Part shown: piece after piece, positions 4,913 to 13,624 of the stretch
Layout: every line of letters begins with the position of its first letter
Position numbering within the stretch: position 1 is the stretch's first letter
Source: an uncultured Oscillospiraceae bacterium
Lineage (GTDB): Bacteria > Bacillota > Clostridia > Oscillospirales > Oscillospiraceae
Length of the DNA: 64,000 nucleotides
NCBI GenBank assembly: GCA_905234855.1
Contig: CAJOIU010000008.1
Location: forward strand, 19,769 to 83,768
Reading direction: 5' to 3'
Translations under genes and position numbers: made by a program
The notes under the pieces: generated by a model
The model's input: only the letters and a program-made list of their open reading frames with translations
Database searches by the model: none
What the model was told of the DNA's origin: nothing

Positions 4913-5725
4913 ATGAAAAAGACTCTTGCCCTCGTGCTGAGCGTCGTGCTGATCCTTGCGCTGGCCGTTGGCTGCGGCAGCAAGGCGGCAGAATCCAAGA
5001 CCATCAAGGTCGCCGCTTCCCCCACGCCCCACGCGGAGATCCTCGCCATTGCGAAGGATATCCTCGCCGAGCAGGGCTATGACCTTGAGATCATCGAGTA
5101 TACCGACTATGTCCAGCCCAATCTGGTGGTGGACAGCGGCGAGCTTGACGCTAACTATTTCCAGCACACCCCGTACATGAACCAGTTCAACGAGGAAAAC
5201 GGCACGGAGATCGTCTCCGCCGGCCTCATCCACTATGAGCCCTTCGGCATTTTCGCCGGCAAGACCGCTTCCATCGACGCGCTGCCCGATGGCGCGAAGA
5301 TCAGCATCCCCAACGACGCCACGAACGGGGCCCGCGCGCTGCTGCTGCTCCAGCAGGAGGGCGTCATCACGCTGGCGGACGGCGCGGGCATTGAGGCCAC
5401 CGTTTATGATATCGTCGATAATCCCAAGAATGTGGAGATCGTCGAGATGGAGGCCGCGCAGCTTCCTTTGTCCCTCGGCGATGTCGATCTTGCGGTCATC
5501 AACGGCAACTATGCCCTTGACGCGGGCCTGAACCCCGCCACCGACGCGCTCGCCATCGAGGACGCTTCCGGCGATGCGGCGCAGTATTTCGCGAACCTCA
5601 TCGGCGTCAAGGCCGGCAATGAGAACAGCGAGGCCATCAAGGCGCTCGTGGCTGCCTGCCAGTCCGACGCGGTGCGCGACTTCATCAACGAGACCTATAA
5701 CGGCGCCGTTGTGCCCATTTTCTGA
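4913..5725 (+). CDS. metQ: Methionine ABC transporter substrate-binding lipoprotein (NlpA family)
   Basis: Lipobox LAVGC; KVAASPTPHAEILAIAKDILAEQGYDLEIIEYTDYVQPN. Confidence 0.93.
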   Translation: MKKTLALVLSVVLILALAVGCGSKAAESKTIKVAASPTPHAEILAIAKDILAEQGYDLEIIEYTDYVQPNLVVDSGELDANYFQHTPYMNQFNEENGTEIVSAGLIHYEPFGIFAGKTASIDALPDGAKISIPNDATNGARALLLLQQEGVITLADGAGIEATVYDIVDNPKNVEIVEMEAAQLPLSLGDVDLAVINGNYALDAGLNPATDALAIEDASGDAAQYFANLIGVKAGNENSEAIKALVAACQSDAVRDFINETYNGAVVPIF

Positions 5726-5744
5726 GGTAAAACCCTGTAATGTT

Positions 5745-5776
5745 AACCCCCGTTGCTTGATTGCAACGGGGGTTTT
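5745..5776 (+). terminator. metNIQ terminator
   Basis: aacccccgttgc-ttgatt-gcaacgggggtttt. Confidence 0.8.
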
Positions 5777-5815
5777 GCGGTATAGTGTGGGCAGATCGAA
5801 GCGGAAGGAGCGACG

Positions 5816-6271
5816 ATGATGCTGAGCGAAAAGATTAAGGAGCTGCGCAAAGCGCAGGGAATGAGTCAGGAGGAGCTGGCTTCCCGGCTGCATGTGGTTC
5901 GGCAGACGGTATCGAAATGGGAGAAGGGTCTTTCCGTGCCGGATGCGGATATGCTCATAAGGCTCGCGGATGTGTTCGGCGTGAGCGTGACGCAGCTTTT
6001 GGGCGGCGTGGCCGGAACCGAGCCGCAGACCGCCTCGGCCGAGGAGCTGGACGCCGTGGCGCGGCAGCTTGCCGAGATCAACGAGCAGCTTGCCGTGAAA
6101 AACCGCCGCGCCCGCCGGATCTGGCGGACGGTCTGCATCGTGCTGGGCGTGATCGTGGCGGTGCAGATCCTTCTCATCGTGCTGGCTCTGACCTTCTCCG
6201 CCGTGCATGAGAGCGGCTCCGGCGCGGAACCCGTCACAGTCTATGAGGAGGTCGTTCAGCCGGAGGAATGA
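5816..6271 (+). CDS. XRE-family helix-turn-helix regulator with C-terminal TM segment
   Basis: LSEKIKELRKAQGMSQEELASRLHVVRQTVSKWEKGLSVPDADMLIRLADVF; hydrophobic C-terminal segment. Confidence 0.85.
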   Translation: MMLSEKIKELRKAQGMSQEELASRLHVVRQTVSKWEKGLSVPDADMLIRLADVFGVSVTQLLGGVAGTEPQTASAEELDAVARQLAEINEQLAVKNRRARRIWRTVCIVLGVIVAVQILLIVLALTFSAVHESGSGAEPVTVYEEVVQPEE

Positions 6272-6358: not shown

Positions 6359-6434
6359 GGACGATTGGCGCAGCTGGTAGCGCATCCGCTTGACGTGCGG
6401 GAGGTCACAAGTTCGAGTCTTGTATCGTCCACCA
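6359..6434 (+). tRNA. tRNA-Val (anticodon GAC), CCA encoded
   Basis: Acceptor GGACGAT/ATCGTCC, anticodon stem CCGC/GCGG with loop TTGACGT, T-loop GTTCGAGTC, 3' ACCA. Confidence 0.92.
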
Positions 6435-6437
6435 ACA

Positions 6438-6464
6438 AAACCACACCATATGGTGTGGTTTTTT
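6438..6464 (+). terminator. tRNA terminator
   Basis: aaaccacacc-ata-tggtgtggttttttg. Confidence 0.8.
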
Positions 6465-6644
6465 GTTTTTGCGAGTGTTTGAATACAATATCTAGTGCTT
6501 CGCTATCAAAAATGGAGTTGAATGACCCATATTGTTTTGGATCGTCTTGATATCATCGCCGTTTTCTTTTTCTTACAGTATGTGGTATCATAAAGCCATG
6601 CAAAACAGCAGGATTACTAAACACGAGGAACAGGAGGGATTTGC

Positions 6645-8312
6645 ATGAAGGAAGTGAAAACGATCCTGAAGCGGATAGCGTTCTATTATCTGCTGCTGGC
6701 GATCAATATCATTCCCTGCGCCAGCGTGATCCCGGATCGCTTCCCGATGCGCAACCTCTCCACGATCTACCTGCTGATACTGTCCGTGTGCCTCGTTTTA
6801 TACTACGCACACCGCGTGTCGCCGACTGGCGGTCTTTCTGTTACGATGAAGTCGATTTCGTGGATGGGCCTTCTTTTGATTCTGCTTCGAGGAATAAAAT
6901 ACAGCGCGTTTTCGGAAGTGGGCGTATTGGCGCGGCATACGTGGTATCTTTACTATGTCCCGCTGCTCCTGCTCCCCCTGTTCCTGTTCTATATCTCGCT
7001 TCTTGTTTCGCCGAAAGAGCATGTGCGCATTTCATGGGTGTGGCGCCTGACGCTGTCGCTGACGGTCGTTCTCATCCTTTTGGTCGTGACGAACGATCTT
7101 CATCAGCTGGCTTTTCGGTTCCGGCCGGATTTCAGGAATTGGGACCGCGAGTATACCCACGGCTGGCTGTTTTACGCCGCGACCTTCTGGCAATATGCGC
7201 TCTATATGGCAGCGATCCTCATTTTGGTGAACAAATGCCGCATCGGCAGTTCCAAAAAGAATGCGTGGATCATTCTGATCCCATTTGCGATCGGTATCGC
7301 GATGAATGTTCTTTTGTTCACCGAAAGAATGCCGAGGCTGAACGGATCTTATATCATCGAGTTTCCCGAGGCGCTTATCTGTATGACGGCGGCTGTGCTG
7401 GAATGCTGTATACAGTTGGGTCTGATCCCGACAAACACGAACTACGGCAGGCTGTTTCCCTTTTTTTCGATTTCCGCGCAGATCACGGATCAAAACGGAA
7501 CCCCCGTGTATGTCTCCCGTTCGGCGCTCCCATTGGCGCATGCGCAATTCGCCATGGAAAGCGGTGCGCGGATCGATGCGCACACGGTATTGCATAAGAT
7601 GCAGCTTCCCGGAGGCTTCGGCTTTTGGCAGGACGATATGACGGAGCTGGATCGGCTGAACGCGGCGCTAGCGGAGGCGAAGGAAGCTCTGGCGCAGGAG
7701 GCGGAGGTGATCCGCCTGCGCAATGAATTGAAGCAGCGGCAAACAAAGATCGAACAGCGAACGCTGGTGTATGACACGATCGCCAAGCGGACCCAAAGGC
7801 AATCGCAGACGATCTCCCAGCTTGCGAAAACCGCTCGCCTGTCGTCGGACTCAGCAGTGAAGGAGGACTGCCGCCATCAGATCACGCTGCTCGGAGCATA
7901 TATAAAACGCTATGCAAATCTGATGCTTCTGTCGCAGGAGCGCAGCGTCATAGAGGTCGGAGAGCTTGGACTGTCCGTCTCGGAGGTGCTGCGCTATCTG
8001 AATAATTGCGGCATTCCGGGCGAGTTCATAAGCCACGCGGACGGCACGGTGTCGGCCGCTGCGGCGCTCTCAGTATTTGAAGCCTTTGAAACGCTGCTGG
8101 AAACCAACCTTTCGTGCCTGCAGGGCGTATTCGTCAATCTTTCCGAGCAGGAAAACGTGACCTTCAAAATGACCTTTGAAAATCTTTCCGAGCCGCTTTC
8201 TGACGAGGGGACACAGTGGCTTTTGACCGCCGGCGTCCTGAGCGAGATTCAGCGCGAGGACGACGTGACCTACATCTGTCTGACCCTGCCGAAAGGGGGC
8301 GAGACCGCATGA
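6645..8312 (+). CDS. Multi-TM sensor protein resembling a 7TM histidine-kinase N-terminus; no obvious H-box or complete ATPase motifs
   Basis: RBS aggaggg; seven-plus hydrophobic segments followed by coiled-coil and degenerate kinase-like C-terminus (LVYDTIAKRTQRQSQTISQL...). Confidence 0.65.
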   Translation: MKEVKTILKRIAFYYLLLAINIIPCASVIPDRFPMRNLSTIYLLILSVCLVLYYAHRVSPTGGLSVTMKSISWMGLLLILLRGIKYSAFSEVGVLARHTWYLYYVPLLLLPLFLFYISLLVSPKEHVRISWVWRLTLSLTVVLILLVVTNDLHQLAFRFRPDFRNWDREYTHGWLFYAATFWQYALYMAAILILVNKCRIGSSKKNAWIILIPFAIGIAMNVLLFTERMPRLNGSYIIEFPEALICMTAAVLECCIQLGLIPTNTNYGRLFPFFSISAQITDQNGTPVYVSRSALPLAHAQFAMESGARIDAHTVLHKMQLPGGFGFWQDDMTELDRLNAALAEAKEALAQEAEVIRLRNELKQRQTKIEQRTLVYDTIAKRTQRQSQTISQLAKTARLSSDSAVKEDCRHQITLLGAYIKRYANLMLLSQERSVIEVGELGLSVSEVLRYLNNCGIPGEFISHADGTVSAAAALSVFEAFETLLETNLSCLQGVFVNLSEQENVTFKMTFENLSEPLSDEGTQWLLTAGVLSEIQREDDVTYICLTLPKGGETA

Positions 8313-9568
8313 GCGCCTTTTTCGCGCTTTCGGCGCCGGCGCGGGCGTTGTTCGCGCTCTGGGCTTTGCTTCTCTGCCTGACCGACATCGGCAGCGCAGT
8401 CCTCGCTGCTGTTAGAAGACGGTACCGCTTTACCGCATTTGCACTTATGCTGTTCGCGCCCGTTTATTTCATGTGGCAGGTGATTTTTGACCTGTCCCTG
8501 TTCGGAAGAACGGAAGACGCCGCCGAGATCAGTCTCACATTGGGCGGTTTTCCGTGGTTCTGTTGGCTTGCCGCTTTTCTGCTGGTGACGCTTGCGGCGG
8601 CGCTTCTTCTTGGCTACAACATCCGATATGACAGAACCTTCATCACCCCGGGTACCATTAAGCTTTTTTTGGACAAGATCCCCTGCGGGGCCTGCTGCTG
8701 GCGGGATAACGGAAGGGTGCTGTTCTCCAATATCTGCATGAACCGCCTGTGCGTTTCCCTGACGAACGGCCCGCTGCTGAACGGCAATCACTTCCGCGAC
8801 GCAGTGAAGGATGGGATACTGACCGCTGACGGCAGGGCGTGGCGTTTTTCCTGCCGCGAGCTGATCTTCGACGGTGAGATCCTGCACGAGATGATCGCCT
8901 CGGATATCACGGCAGAGTATGCCAAAATGCAGGCGCTAGAAAAGGACAAAGCAGAGCTCTCCGAACTGAACCGCGAGCTCCGGGAATACTACCTCAGCAT
9001 CGACGACATCATCCGCAGAAGGGAGATCCTGCAGGCAAGGGTAAACATACACGACGAAATGAACCGGCTTATGCTGTCTACCGCGACGGCAAACCGTGAG
9101 GATGCGGCGGCGATGGATCGTATTTTCTCGCTGTGGGAGCAAAACGCGCTGCTGCTGTGCATGGAGGCAGAGGAAACGACAGATGCGAAAGCGGTAAACA
9201 GCATGGAAAAGCTCGCCGCGGCGCTGAATATTCGTCTGGTCTGGCAGGGCGTTTTACCGGACTCATTATCCGAGTGGCAGCGCAGCCTGTTCTTCTCCGC
9301 CGCGCAGGAGGCGATTGCCAACGCCGTCAAGCATGCGGACGCTAAAACGATGACGCTCTCGTTTGCCGAGACGGGAGAATGCTTCTGCTGCCGCTTCACA
9401 AATGATGGGAAATTGCCGCATGACGCCGTGCGCTTTACCGGAGGGCTTGCCAACCTATCACTGCTGGCCGACAAACAGGGGGCGACCGTTTCGGCGCAAA
9501 TTGACAAAGCGTTCACTCTCTCTTTGTGCTTTCCGAAACAAACGGAATCGAATCAACCGATTGGCTGA
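8309..9568 (+). CDS. Sensor histidine kinase
   Basis: ATG overlaps upstream stop (ATGA); N-terminal TM segments; putative H-box RVNIHDEMNRLML and N-box AAQEAIANAVKHADAKTMTLSF. Confidence 0.75.
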   Translation: MSAFFALSAPARALFALWALLLCLTDIGSAVLAAVRRRYRFTAFALMLFAPVYFMWQVIFDLSLFGRTEDAAEISLTLGGFPWFCWLAAFLLVTLAAALLLGYNIRYDRTFITPGTIKLFLDKIPCGACCWRDNGRVLFSNICMNRLCVSLTNGPLLNGNHFRDAVKDGILTADGRAWRFSCRELIFDGEILHEMIASDITAEYAKMQALEKDKAELSELNRELREYYLSIDDIIRRREILQARVNIHDEMNRLMLSTATANREDAAAMDRIFSLWEQNALLLCMEAEETTDAKAVNSMEKLAAALNIRLVWQGVLPDSLSEWQRSLFFSAAQEAIANAVKHADAKTMTLSFAETGECFCCRFTNDGKLPHDAVRFTGGLANLSLLADKQGATVSAQIDKAFTLSLCFPKQTESNQPIG

Positions 9569-9596
9569 TGCGCGGCCGTGTATCGGAAGGTAAAAT
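9554..9596 (+). promoter_or_regulatory. Putative response-regulator operator plus promoter of the regulator gene
   Basis: Imperfect palindrome CAACCGATTGGCTG (9554-9567) then TAAAAT (9591-9596); same layout as 10334-10376. Confidence 0.6.
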
Positions 9597-9627
9597 GGAA
9601 CTTACGGCATGAAGGGAGGGTTTCCGT

Positions 9628-10266
9628 ATGACGTATAACGTTTTGATCGTGGAGGATCAGGATATCTCGCGGGAGCTGTTTGAGATATACCTTCGCTCCA
9701 GTGAGCATTTTCGCCATCTTCTTTCGATTTCCAACGCCTCGGCGGCGCTTTCCGTCTGTCAGAACAGCAAAGTGGATCTCATCCTGATGGATGTCATGAC
9801 CGAGCTTGACCACAGCGGACTGGACGCGGCGGAGGAGATCAAACGGCAGTTCCCGCGGATCAAGATCATTATCGTCACTTCCATGCCCGAGTATTCATGG
9901 CTGGCGCGGGCAAGAAAGATCGGGGTGGATTCCTTTTGGTATAAGGACGGCCACAAGGAAAGCATCTTGGACGTGATGGAACGAACGATGGCGGGGGAGC
10001 ATATCTTCCCCGATGAAACGCCGCTCATTCGCATCGGTCATGCCACAAACCGCGAGTTTACGGAGCGGGAGCTGGACGTGCTGAAGGAACTCACCACCGG
10101 GGATACCAATGCCGAGATTGCCGAGCGGCTCGGTATTTCCGTCGCCACGGTAAAAAGCCACCTCCTGCACTTGATGGAGAAAACCGGCTTCCGGACACGC
10201 ACCGAGCTGGTTTCCGAAGCCAGAGGACTTGGAATCGTCATCAAAAACAAACGCGAAGAATCATAG
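9628..10266 (+). CDS. NarL/LuxR-family response regulator
   Basis: Receiver (VLIVEDQDIS..LILMDVMTE) plus LuxR HTH (FTERELDVLKELTTGDTNAEIAERLGISVATVKSHLLHLMEKTGFRTRTEL). Confidence 0.9.
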   Translation: MTYNVLIVEDQDISRELFEIYLRSSEHFRHLLSISNASAALSVCQNSKVDLILMDVMTELDHSGLDAAEEIKRQFPRIKIIIVTSMPEYSWLARARKIGVDSFWYKDGHKESILDVMERTMAGEHIFPDETPLIRIGHATNREFTERELDVLKELTTGDTNAEIAERLGISVATVKSHLLHLMEKTGFRTRTELVSEARGLGIVIKNKREES

Positions 10267-10281
10267 AGTATAAAACGGCAG

Positions 10282-10314
10282 AACCGGACGTGCAGCCTAT
10301 ACGCCCGGTTTTTT
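10282..10314 (+). terminator. Terminator after response-regulator gene
   Basis: aaccggacg..cgcccggtttttt hairpin followed by T-run. Confidence 0.55.
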
Positions 10315-10333
10315 GTTTGGAACCATCAACAAT

Positions 10334-10376
10334 CAGCCGATCGGCTGATGCGGCGCGGAGCACATTTCACTATACT
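10334..10376 (+). promoter_or_regulatory. Putative response-regulator operator plus promoter of the DUF4428/lipoprotein operon
   Basis: Palindrome CAGCCGATCGGCTG (10334-10347; perfect ATCAGCCGATCGGCTGAT over 10332-10349) then TATACT (10371-10376). Confidence 0.6.
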
Positions 10377-10421
10377 GGTAAAAAGGTGGAGTATACCACG
10401 ACCGAAGAAAGGAGAGATACC

Positions 10422-11249
10422 ATGGGACTGTTCAAAAAAGAAGCCTGCGTCCTCTGCGGCGGAAAAACCGGCCTGCTGGACAAAAAGTGCCAGGACGGCA
10501 AGGTCTGCAAGGACTGCGCAAACAAAGTGTCACCTTGGTTTGACGACTGGAAGAGCACGAGCAAGCTCGTGCTGGAGAGCCATATCGCTATGCGCTCTGC
10601 CGACCGGACGTTAGCGGAGATGGGCAACTACAACAAGGTCTTCGGAGAATTCGGCGTCATCCTGATTGATGAAGCCGCGCGCAAATTCATTGCCTTCCCG
10701 GACACCAGCTCCGGCCTGTTCGGGAGCCAGAGAAAGGTAAAAAGCCTGCAGGACGTGATCGATCTGGGCCCGGATGTGATCAGCTTTGACGCGGTGGAGG
10801 ATCTCGAGATCGACATCACCGAGACCACCCGCGAGGAAAAGCGCACGGTGGACGGGCAGCAGGTCAGCTACGATCCGCCCCACATCCTCTACATGGAGAC
10901 CTTCACCCTCCGACTGAAGCTGGACTATCCCTTCTTTAAGACCATGAACATCCAGCTCAACGACGGAGCCGTGCAGATCCATAACATCGGCCGGCGTCTC
11001 TGGACCGATCCCGGACGCAAGCTGGCGGCGCATCTGCTTGGTCTTCCGGGCCTTGTAAAGGAGGATCAGGACGCGGTATTTGACAACGACTCGCTGCTCC
11101 GTGCATTTCTCCGAAGCGATTTTGAGATGCCGGACTACTCCTACGGCTTCAAATGCACTCTGCACAACTGGGACGAGATCAAAAAGTATCAGTATTATCT
11201 CGCCATGGCGCGGGAGATCCAAAACATTATCACAGGAAACGGAGAGTGA
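10422..11249 (+). CDS. DUF4428-like protein (N-terminal Cys zinc-ribbon-like motif)
   Basis: MGLFKKEACVLCGGKTGLLDKKCQDGKVCKDCANKVSPWF (CxxC...CxxC); RBS aaggaga. Confidence 0.65.
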   Translation: MGLFKKEACVLCGGKTGLLDKKCQDGKVCKDCANKVSPWFDDWKSTSKLVLESHIAMRSADRTLAEMGNYNKVFGEFGVILIDEAARKFIAFPDTSSGLFGSQRKVKSLQDVIDLGPDVISFDAVEDLEIDITETTREEKRTVDGQQVSYDPPHILYMETFTLRLKLDYPFFKTMNIQLNDGAVQIHNIGRRLWTDPGRKLAAHLLGLPGLVKEDQDAVFDNDSLLRAFLRSDFEMPDYSYGFKCTLHNWDEIKKYQYYLAMAREIQNIITGNGE

Positions 11250-11254
11250 AAAGC

Positions 11255-12820
11255 ATGAAAAAGATTCTGACCCTCGGGCTGGCTGTTATTATGGCGCTCG
11301 CGCTCTGCGCCTGCGGTTCCTCCGGCGCTTCCGACGAAAACCAGACCATGTACGGCACCTACATGCTGTACGCCATGGATTATGACGAGGAAACCGTTGT
11401 TTTCGCCGACGAGCTGTTCGAAGGCGAGAACTACATAACCCTGAAAAGCGGTGGGATCGCGGAGATGTGCCTGGAGGATGAATTGGCCGACGTAAAATGG
11501 AAGGCAGAGGGCGAAAAGCTTACCATTACCGCAGATGACGGCGATATGGAAGCGACCCTTTCGGACGGCATCATGGCTCTGCTGATTGACGGTCTGCATC
11601 TCTATTTTGTCGGGGAAAACGCTTCGACGGACAGCATTCACGCCGTGACCATAGACGAAATGCTTTTCGGTGCGGCAGAGGACGCGATCGACGAGGTTTT
11701 CGATGAGGACGCGATCGACGAGGTTTTCGATGAGCCCGCGATCGACGAGGCTTTCGATGAGCCCGCGATCGAAGAGATCGAAGCGGAAGCTCCCGCGGCG
11801 GCGGGAGAAACCGAGATCCAGAAAATGTGGAACGGCTGGTATTACGGCTGCATCGACATGGATGGCTGTACCGACGACTGGGCGTTTCTCAATGGCGCTA
11901 CCTATGACGCCGTGATGTATGTCGAGCTGGACAGAGACGGCGTCGGCCGCTTTGCCATTTACGATCCCTTCGGCGATCTGATTTCGAATGAACACAGCAA
12001 CCTGTATGTGCAGGCGGAGTGCCATGCCGACACGCAGTATCTCTACGGCGACAGCGGCGTTGCCTTCGACGACGATCTCAATCCCTCGGATTGGGTGATC
12101 GTCCATAATCTTGCTGTTCCGGAAAAGCTCAACGTGGGCAGCGAGTCTTGGGAGGATAGCGGCGCCAAGATCGGCTATGACTTCCAGTTCAAGCCATGGG
12201 GCGACCGTTGGGAAGGCGACAACTATACACAGTTTATCCCCTATTTCGATGCGTACATAGATGCGATCGACGCCGGCCTTGCATCTCCGTTCGGCGATAC
12301 GTTTACGGGCTTTGGAATTGCCGAGCCTTCCATCGGCGGCGGTGAGAGCCCGGAAACGGCCCCCGACTCCGGCGCCCCCGGGGAGCTTTCCGCTCTGCTC
12401 GGTGCGAACCCTGCCAAGCTGGATGTTAACGACAAGGGCGCAGTGTTTATCTATTATCCGGCGGAGCAGTTTTATTACGATCCCGACTACGGCAAGCTTA
12501 AAAACGACGATACCGGCGTAGGCATCCTGATCGACCCTATGCTCGGTTCAACGAATTTTGATGAGCTGAAGGCGTCCTACGAGGAAAACAACAGCGATGA
12601 AGAAGACTACTCTCTGACGGAGACGACGATAAACGGACACAAGGCGATGATCATGACCTATTCCGATTGGCTGGGCTCGACGATGCGCGTCGATATCGAT
12701 TTCGGCGGGGAGCACGACGGCTTTTACGGCATGAGCTTCGCGGTTTCGGGCGATTCCATCTGGGACTGCGACACGGATATCGTCTGGGCGATTATCGAAT
12801 CCATGGAAGTGGTAAAATAA
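11255..12820 (+). CDS. Predicted lipoprotein with acidic 9-aa tandem repeats
   Basis: Lipobox LALCACGSS; DAIDEVFDE/DAIDEVFDE/PAIDEAFDE/PAIEEIEAE repeats. Confidence 0.7.
   Translation: MKKILTLGLAVIMALALCACGSSGASDENQTMYGTYMLYAMDYDEETVVFADELFEGENYITLKSGGIAEMCLEDELADVKWKAEGEKLTITADDGDMEATLSDGIMALLIDGLHLYFVGENASTDSIHAVTIDEMLFGAAEDAIDEVFDEDAIDEVFDEPAIDEAFDEPAIEEIEAEAPAAAGETEIQKMWNGWYYGCIDMDGCTDDWAFLNGATYDAVMYVELDRDGVGRFAIYDPFGDLISNEHSNLYVQAECHADTQYLYGDSGVAFDDDLNPSDWVIVHNLAVPEKLNVGSESWEDSGAKIGYDFQFKPWGDRWEGDNYTQFIPYFDAYIDAIDAGLASPFGDTFTGFGIAEPSIGGGESPETAPDSGAPGELSALLGANPAKLDVNDKGAVFIYYPAEQFYYDPDYGKLKNDDTGVGILIDPMLGSTNFDELKASYEENNSDEEDYSLTETTINGHKAMIMTYSDWLGSTMRVDIDFGGEHDGFYGMSFAVSGDSIWDCDTDIVWAIIESMEVVK
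11681..11788 (+). repeat. 27-bp in-frame tandem repeat, about 3.5 units
   Basis: gacgcgatcgacgaggttttcgatgag repeated from 11681, 11708, 11735, 11762 (last unit diverged). Confidence 0.9.
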
Positions 12821-12829
12821 AGACGGAAT

Positions 12830-13333
12830 ATGAGACGATCACGGAGCATTCTGTTGGTGGGACTATGGATCATGGCGCTGATCTGCGGCTGCGGTCAATC
12901 GGATCCGGCAAAGACGATTACCAATAGGAACATTCCTGTCGAAGACGTCACGGATTTCTGCTACACTTATGAAAATATCAACTATGGCGCGTTCTATCAA
13001 AGGTACCGATTCTATGTAGAGAACGATCGCTATATGTTCCAGCACGAGACCCGCGAAAGGCCAAATGATTATGGTCCGGCAGCAGAAGAAGACATCACGG
13101 CCATCGGAACCTTCGAGCTGACGCCCCGGGAATGGCTGGAGGCAATGGGCCTCCTGAAAAGCGGGAAGGTGAGTGTCCGGAAGGAATCCGCAGAAAGCGG
13201 TTCTTCCGGTCCATGGACCTATATTTACTGGAAAAATGACAAGTCCCGGTATCAGCAGTTTACGTTTTCCGGTTATGAGGAAAGGAAAGCCTTCGAGGAC
13301 TATTGCGCAGACCTTGCTCAGAGCGGTCGGTAA
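12830..13333 (+). CDS. Small predicted lipoprotein
   Basis: MRRSRSILLVGLWIMALICGCGQSD signal/lipobox; follows the upstream lipoprotein gene directly. Confidence 0.65.
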   Translation: MRRSRSILLVGLWIMALICGCGQSDPAKTITNRNIPVEDVTDFCYTYENINYGAFYQRYRFYVENDRYMFQHETRERPNDYGPAAEEDITAIGTFELTPREWLEAMGLLKSGKVSVRKESAESGSSGPWTYIYWKNDKSRYQQFTFSGYEERKAFEDYCADLAQSGR

Positions 13334-13478
13334 ATGACAGCTTGGGCGCGCGGAAAACAGCATCAAATAACAAAAGCGTCAACTATCCGGAAAAAGGATG
13401 GTTGGCGCTCTTGTTACCAAAAAACGGCCATGCTCAGCACGGCCTTTCCTCTTTCCCCAGTCCCTGATTCGCCGCTGC

Positions 13479-13531
13479 AAAAATCAGAAATGAGCTCGTC
13501 GCCTCCGGCTCCTCCTTCATTTCTGATTTTT
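13479..13531. terminator. Bidirectional terminator-like inverted repeat
   Basis: aaaaatcagaaatga ... tcatttctgattttt, perfect 15-bp arms. Confidence 0.55.
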
Positions 13532-13624
13532 GTCACACATTATTGACAAACCCACAAATTTCTAATAACCAGCGGCGCATTCTGGCTTGCCCTATGGCCG
13601 GATTTGCGGTATCATATACAAGTT

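Follow-up and report, generated by a model that had tools for sequence, protein, structure and literature searches.

Activators bound near position -41.5 of a promoter commonly replace the -35 contact, a mode known as class II activation. Several well described response regulators combine a receiver domain with a GerE-type DNA-binding domain, among them NarL and NarP of E. coli, which bind as dimers to an inverted repeat, and ComA of B. subtilis, likewise a NarL-type regulator, whose box (TTGCGG-N4-CCGCAA) is an inverted repeat with a 4-nt spacer and for which class II sites exist. At the class II position ComA depends on a direct repeat, and an inverted repeat there cuts activity more than tenfold (PMC4797271). 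LiaR, CesR and VraR, known from B. subtilis, streptococci, lactococci and S. aureus, are response regulators of cell-envelope stress. The published motif of LiaR is T-N4-C-N4-G-N4-A (PMC7191749), and LiaR sites carry a flanking A-stretch (PMC4447274); in B. subtilis the protein binds at a promoter with a marked -35, between -76 and -52. The motif reported for CesR, TCAGHCTnnAGDCTGA, is similar in form to the sites described below.

The window, i.e. the whole 64,000-nt stretch of DNA analysed here, comes from an uncultured Oscillospiraceae bacterium and contains a two-component locus with two closely similar palindromes, one before the regulator gene and the other before an operon encoding a DUF4428 protein and lipoprotein-like proteins (Table 1). 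We propose, with a probability of roughly 80%, that the NarL/LiaR-type regulator of this locus binds both palindromes, regulates its own gene, and, from a class II-like site, activates genes for envelope proteins. Both domains of the regulator score above the Pfam cut-offs (Response_reg 60.6 bits, GerE 57.6 bits), and the cognate kinase gene is adjacent, the order HKa-HKb-regulator being found in nearly all loci with enough flanking sequence. HKb has no Pfam match. The tyrosine of HKa, together with the invariant H and N boxes of HKb, indicates that HKb is probably the kinase and HKa a sensor that lacks kinase activity, which possibly acts as a pseudokinase sensor through its partner; the tyrosine was matched to the H-box position by eye, as HKa and HKb do not align by BLASTP. 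The first transcript probably ends at the hairpin with a T-run that follows the regulator gene. This hairpin is absent from the list of a simple promoter and terminator scan, which also listed neither of the two window promoters. Within the larger lipoprotein-like gene, positions 11700-11785 hold short in-frame repeats, similar to GCGATCGACGAGGTTTTCGATGA, that encode AIDEVFDE/P.

Table 1. Features of the two-component locus and its putative target operon (positions within the window)
Feature	Position	Strand	Evidence
HKa, 7TM sensor, tyrosine at the expected phospho-histidine	6645..8312	+	Pfam HisKA_7TM; Y in 68/69 orthologs
HKb, partner histidine kinase, H-box IHDEMN and N-box	8309..9568	+	H and N invariant in 74/74 orthologs
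Operator 1 (candidate), ATCAACCGATTGGCTGAT, before regulator gene	9552..9569	+	upstream site conserved in 54/81 loci
-10 hexamer TAAAAT, putative regulator promoter	9591..9596	+	21 nt after operator 1; 21-22 nt in 50/54 upstream sites
Response regulator, receiver and GerE (LuxR-type) DNA-binding domains	9628..10266	+	Pfam; nearest solved structures VraR
Hairpin and T-run after regulator gene, probable terminator between the two transcripts	10268..10322	+	fold -17.2 kcal/mol, z -1.8
Operator 2 (candidate), ATCAGCCGATCGGCTGAT, perfect 18-bp palindrome, before DUF4428/lipoprotein operon	10332..10349	+	downstream site in 47/81 loci
-10 hexamer TATACT, putative target operon promoter	10371..10376	+	21 nt after operator 2; 21-22 nt in 40/47 downstream sites
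Target gene 1, DUF4428 protein	10422..11249	+	Pfam; in L028 a DUF4428 gene also lies directly after the operator
Target gene 2, lipoprotein-like secreted protein, N-terminus MKKILTLGLAVIMALALCACGSSG	11255..12820	+	L022 homolog with its own operator
Target gene 3, small lipoprotein-like protein, probably ending the operon	12830..13333	+	no family match (Pfam, NCBIfam)

An earlier note on this DNA had drawn attention to the palindromes, and its coordinates, sequences, two-base difference, 18-bp palindrome and -10-like hexamers all proved exact. Its observation that the hexamer follows the start of the 14-bp core at an identical distance of 37 nt was confirmed at both sites (9554 to 9591 and 10334 to 10371), and both hexamers start 21 nt past the end of the 18-mer. 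When the window was scanned with up to three mismatches, four strand-hits were obtained, all from operators 1 and 2, compared with 0.38 expected, and none of 100 shuffles of the window reached four. A scan of the full genome, which the note had proposed, found one further match to the palindrome, with three mismatches, in the 1.79-Mb assembly (82.6% complete, so that a third site may have been missed); with the -10 included in the pattern, these two sites are the only matches at zero to two mismatches. Operator 1 sits in the 3' end of the kinase gene HKb, and its TGA (9566-9568) is the HKb stop codon, an arrangement that is shared by 28 of the 52 loci examined.

For the comparison across relatives, 85,462 species genomes were searched for the regulator and the best 80 of 128 loci (64-89% identity) were taken, mostly from metagenome-assembled genomes of rumen and gut Clostridia, giving 81 loci with the window included. 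The earlier note had made its reading depend on conservation at orthologous loci, and this conservation is strong: the palindrome is present upstream of the regulator gene in 54 loci, beyond it in 47, and at both places in 39, and a refined matrix gave 109 forward matches versus none in the reversed sequence (818 kb, same threshold). Within the relatives, 99 of 107 matrix matches lie between -260 and +1300 of the regulator gene, a zone making up one fifth of the sequence; because the matrix was trained on those near-regulator zones, cleaner evidence comes from the reversed control and from the -10 spacing, which did not enter the matrix. Of 101 sites, 73 have a best TATAAT-like hexamer that begins 21 nt past the palindrome, and in 17 more the distance is 22 nt (90/101); the consensus reads AAA-ATCA(G/T)(C/A/T)C-N4-GGCTGAT-G(T/C)G. 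Coding constraint on HKb was considered as a cause of the conservation of operator 1 and was rejected, since the motif is also kept in the downstream sites, which are non-coding, and in L042 with its divergent kinase genes.

A palindrome with the fixed spacing stands beside the regulator in about 65 of 70 loci with S, T or I after TVK in the recognition helix. No site was found near the regulator gene in four loci with the TVKS helix, namely L005, L015, L069, and L034, the last of which has only 28 nt of upstream sequence. In L069, which is without an operator, a unit resembling gtctgtccagggagtgaaaaagtag is repeated after the regulator gene, downstream of 6624. The site of L071 is found 576 nt upstream of the regulator gene, with an insert of several hundred bases between 5443 and 6000 separating the two, and in L041 a gene for a 23S_rRNA_IVP protein (four-helix bundle; 5511-5861) lies between operator and regulator gene. 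Many downstream promoters also carry a sequence similar to GGATAACT in the presumed start region, about 7-15 nt past the -10 (L004, L013, L021, L024, L030 and L039).

Presence of the motif also follows that of the regulator at the level of whole genomes. Of 41 whole genomes encoding the regulator, 37 contain the motif with its -10, and the control gave one match in total. A search of 34 congeners of the window genome found the regulator in none, and these congeners essentially lack the motif as well, the two one-mismatch matches looking like chance. The kinase genes of L042 are divergent, yet the site is still found next to the regulator gene, 65 nt upstream of it. The proposal that the palindromes form the operator of the adjacent LuxR-type regulator is thus supported both by their conservation beside the orthologous regulator and by their staying with it in L042. 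Among distant orthologs with TVKY, TVKR or TVKN instead of TVKS, most keep the GCC-N4-GGC core and the spacing, and the outer arms differ, being ACTA/GGGG or CCCC/GGGG with TVKY, ATGT/ACAT with TVKR, and TAGT/AC-- with TVKN. This apparent covariation of recognition helix and palindrome arms is suggestive and not proof, because a receiver-domain tree resolves the arm changes into about one or two evolutionary events and offers a single independent pair. Some of the still more distant relatives (L151, L155, L157, L161) carry palindromes of unrelated sequence, placed about 20-21 nt ahead of a -10-like hexamer, e.g. TTCCCCAATATTGGGGAA in L161 and ACTACCCAATCGGGTAGT in L157, hinting that the geometry of the operator may outlast its sequence; in most of the even more distant relatives nothing clear was seen.

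Setting the -10 at -12 to -7 puts the dyad, as judged from sequence, near -42.5 in most of the 101 sites, in agreement with the centre near -42 that had been suggested for the window. The palindrome ends in AT and is followed by a conserved G, and the resulting ATG, present in 93 of the 101 sites, coincides with the expected start of a -35 hexamer at 17-bp spacing; operator and a degenerate -35 (ATGnnn) therefore overlap. With this spacer the match to TTGACA is 2.3 of 6 bases on average. The earlier description of promoters with no recognisable -35 holds in that there is no good one, but it has to be amended by the degenerate hexamer that overlaps the operator at a 17-bp spacer. Conservation is higher in the promoter-proximal half-site (12.5 bits) than in the distal half-site (10.5 bits). 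A site near -41.5 over a poor -35 is what characterizes class II promoters, and by sequence only this is the arrangement found here; the position of the dyad and the lack of a good -35 would fit a class II activator site.

From the sites, their spacing and conservation, and their association with the regulator and with secreted targets, we infer binding, phosphorylation, activation and a signal in the following way. A membrane signal would be sensed by the HKa/HKb pair, HKb would phosphorylate the regulator, and a dimer of the regulator would occupy the inverted repeat (TCAGCC-N4-GGCTGA core) with one subunit per half-site. The bound dimer would then recruit sigma-A RNA polymerase in class II fashion, at promoters that combine a dyad near -42.5, a degenerate -35, 17-bp spacing and a good -10. 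In doing so, the regulator would raise its own expression (positive autoregulation) and switch on the envelope-protein operon, which in the window comprises the DUF4428 and lipoprotein genes.

The same regulator on the same operator might instead act as a repressor, which, bound over the -35 region, would block RNA polymerase until a change in phosphorylation released it. Repression by NarL-family regulators is possible, as in S. mutans, where LiaR represses hrcA (PMC4447274), and the operators described here overlap the -35 position by two bases, such that bound protein could exclude sigma region 4. However, promoters with so poor a match to TTGACA should be weak when bare, leaving little to repress, and the near-invariant phasing with the -10 is needed by an activator that touches polymerase but not by a repressor, which makes repression an unlikely reading, if the most credible of the alternatives. 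It could also be argued, given that adjacency alone is no proof of binding, that another transcription factor occupies the palindromes. We consider this very improbable, as presence of the motif tracks the regulator across genomes, the site has remained with the regulator gene in L042, a different recognition helix goes with different arms, and the regulator is related to LiaR, whose motif the sites fit.

If the palindromes worked at the RNA level, as an attenuator or processing hairpin, and not as operators in DNA, support would come from the fold of site 2, a 7-bp hairpin with a tetraloop at -10.9 kcal/mol (z -2.3), but the fold of site 1 is no better than that of shuffles (z -0.2). Among the 54 upstream sites, arm position 5 can form a Watson-Crick pair in only 28 and position 6 in 43; among the 47 downstream sites the counts are 16 and 25, and pairing is therefore not maintained. 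Moreover, no T-run accompanies the sites, which are followed downstream by a phased -10, and an Rfam search found only a tRNA and nothing at the palindromes. The hairpin reading, which we hold to be barely credible, was rejected for its failure of pairing at two arm positions and for the position of the sites relative to the -10.

Activation by the regulator would, in the relatives, mainly concern the cell surface. Signal peptides were predicted with a simple hydrophobicity rule for 64 of the 71 non-regulator genes that follow the sites, a count in which two positives are not real targets (the minus strand of L016 and HKa of L042) and several of the remaining negative calls are wrong-strand palindrome readings or miscalled ORFs. 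Domains identified in the targets include LRR_5 (BspA type), SLH, Big_2, dockerin and Ig-like, and several large targets have no Pfam family match. Some genomes (G092, G095) harbor several sites each, every one before a paralogous BspA-like gene. Targets in the relatives thus appear to be mostly large surface proteins with signal peptides, the window having a DUF4428 and lipoprotein-like operon in their place. The gene that follows the system, mnmG, is native, with 76-82% identity in congeners; the region before it matches no congener examined, and no clean insertion boundary was found. The patchy distribution of the system (6359-13603 in the window) is suggestive of its horizontal acquisition close to a tRNA gene.

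Open-licence papers on DUF4428 and on 7TM/BspA two-component systems contained no description of this system that we could find, and a literature search with the sequence returned unrelated papers only. A broader and more tentative view, to which we give somewhat less than even odds, is that the operon represents an undescribed, patchily inherited module of gut Clostridia, consisting of the degenerate 7TM sensor HKa, the partner kinase HKb, and a regulator with a portable class II box that has spread to the surface-protein genes of each species, up to several BspA-like paralogs per genome. The regulator would be conserved while its targets turn over, and specificity would have shifted in sublineages by matched changes of helix and arms. 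Beyond what had been noted before, the analysis adds the degenerate -35, the surface-protein targets in relatives, and the fit to the LiaR/CesR motif, and its value lies in how large and clear the regulon signature is and in the link from that signature to surface proteins. The regulon definition, AAA-ATCAkyC-N4-GGCTGAT-G followed after 21 nt by TATAAT, is usable in many uncultured rumen and gut Clostridia; it connects a two-component system with large surface proteins that may mediate attachment, and it provides a natural series for studying the joint change of NarL-type recognition helices and their operators.

Compared with NarL and NarP, the window regulator has the same receiver and GerE architecture, but operator and arrangement differ, and against the NarL and NarP equivalog models it shows remote similarity only, far below the cut-offs. 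The ComA box resembles these sites in being an inverted repeat with a 4-nt spacer but has a different half-site, and the poor activation that ComA achieves from an inverted repeat at the class II position counts against a class II reading of the present sites (PMC4797271). The closest likeness is to the LiaR group: the consensus matches the CesR motif except at the two inner T/A positions of CesR, the LiaR motif fits 99 of the 101 sites, the flanking A-stretch is common to LiaR sites and those described here, autoregulation has also been proposed for LiaR, and VraR is the nearest solved relative of the regulator. LiaR and VraR systems differ from this one in the sensor, which here is the 7TM protein HKa together with HKb, and in the targets, which here are mostly large surface proteins; none of the neighbouring genes matched LiaF or LiaS (Pfam, NCBIfam), the upstream gene encoding the HisKA_7TM protein. 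Because the B. subtilis LiaR site lies farther upstream than the dyad near -42.5 of these promoters, and no LiaF- or LiaS-like gene was identified, we do not class the system as LiaR, although its operator is, as read from the motif, of the LiaR type and at a putative class II position. The result would be a simple class II architecture built on an inverted repeat, in contrast to both ComA and LiaR.
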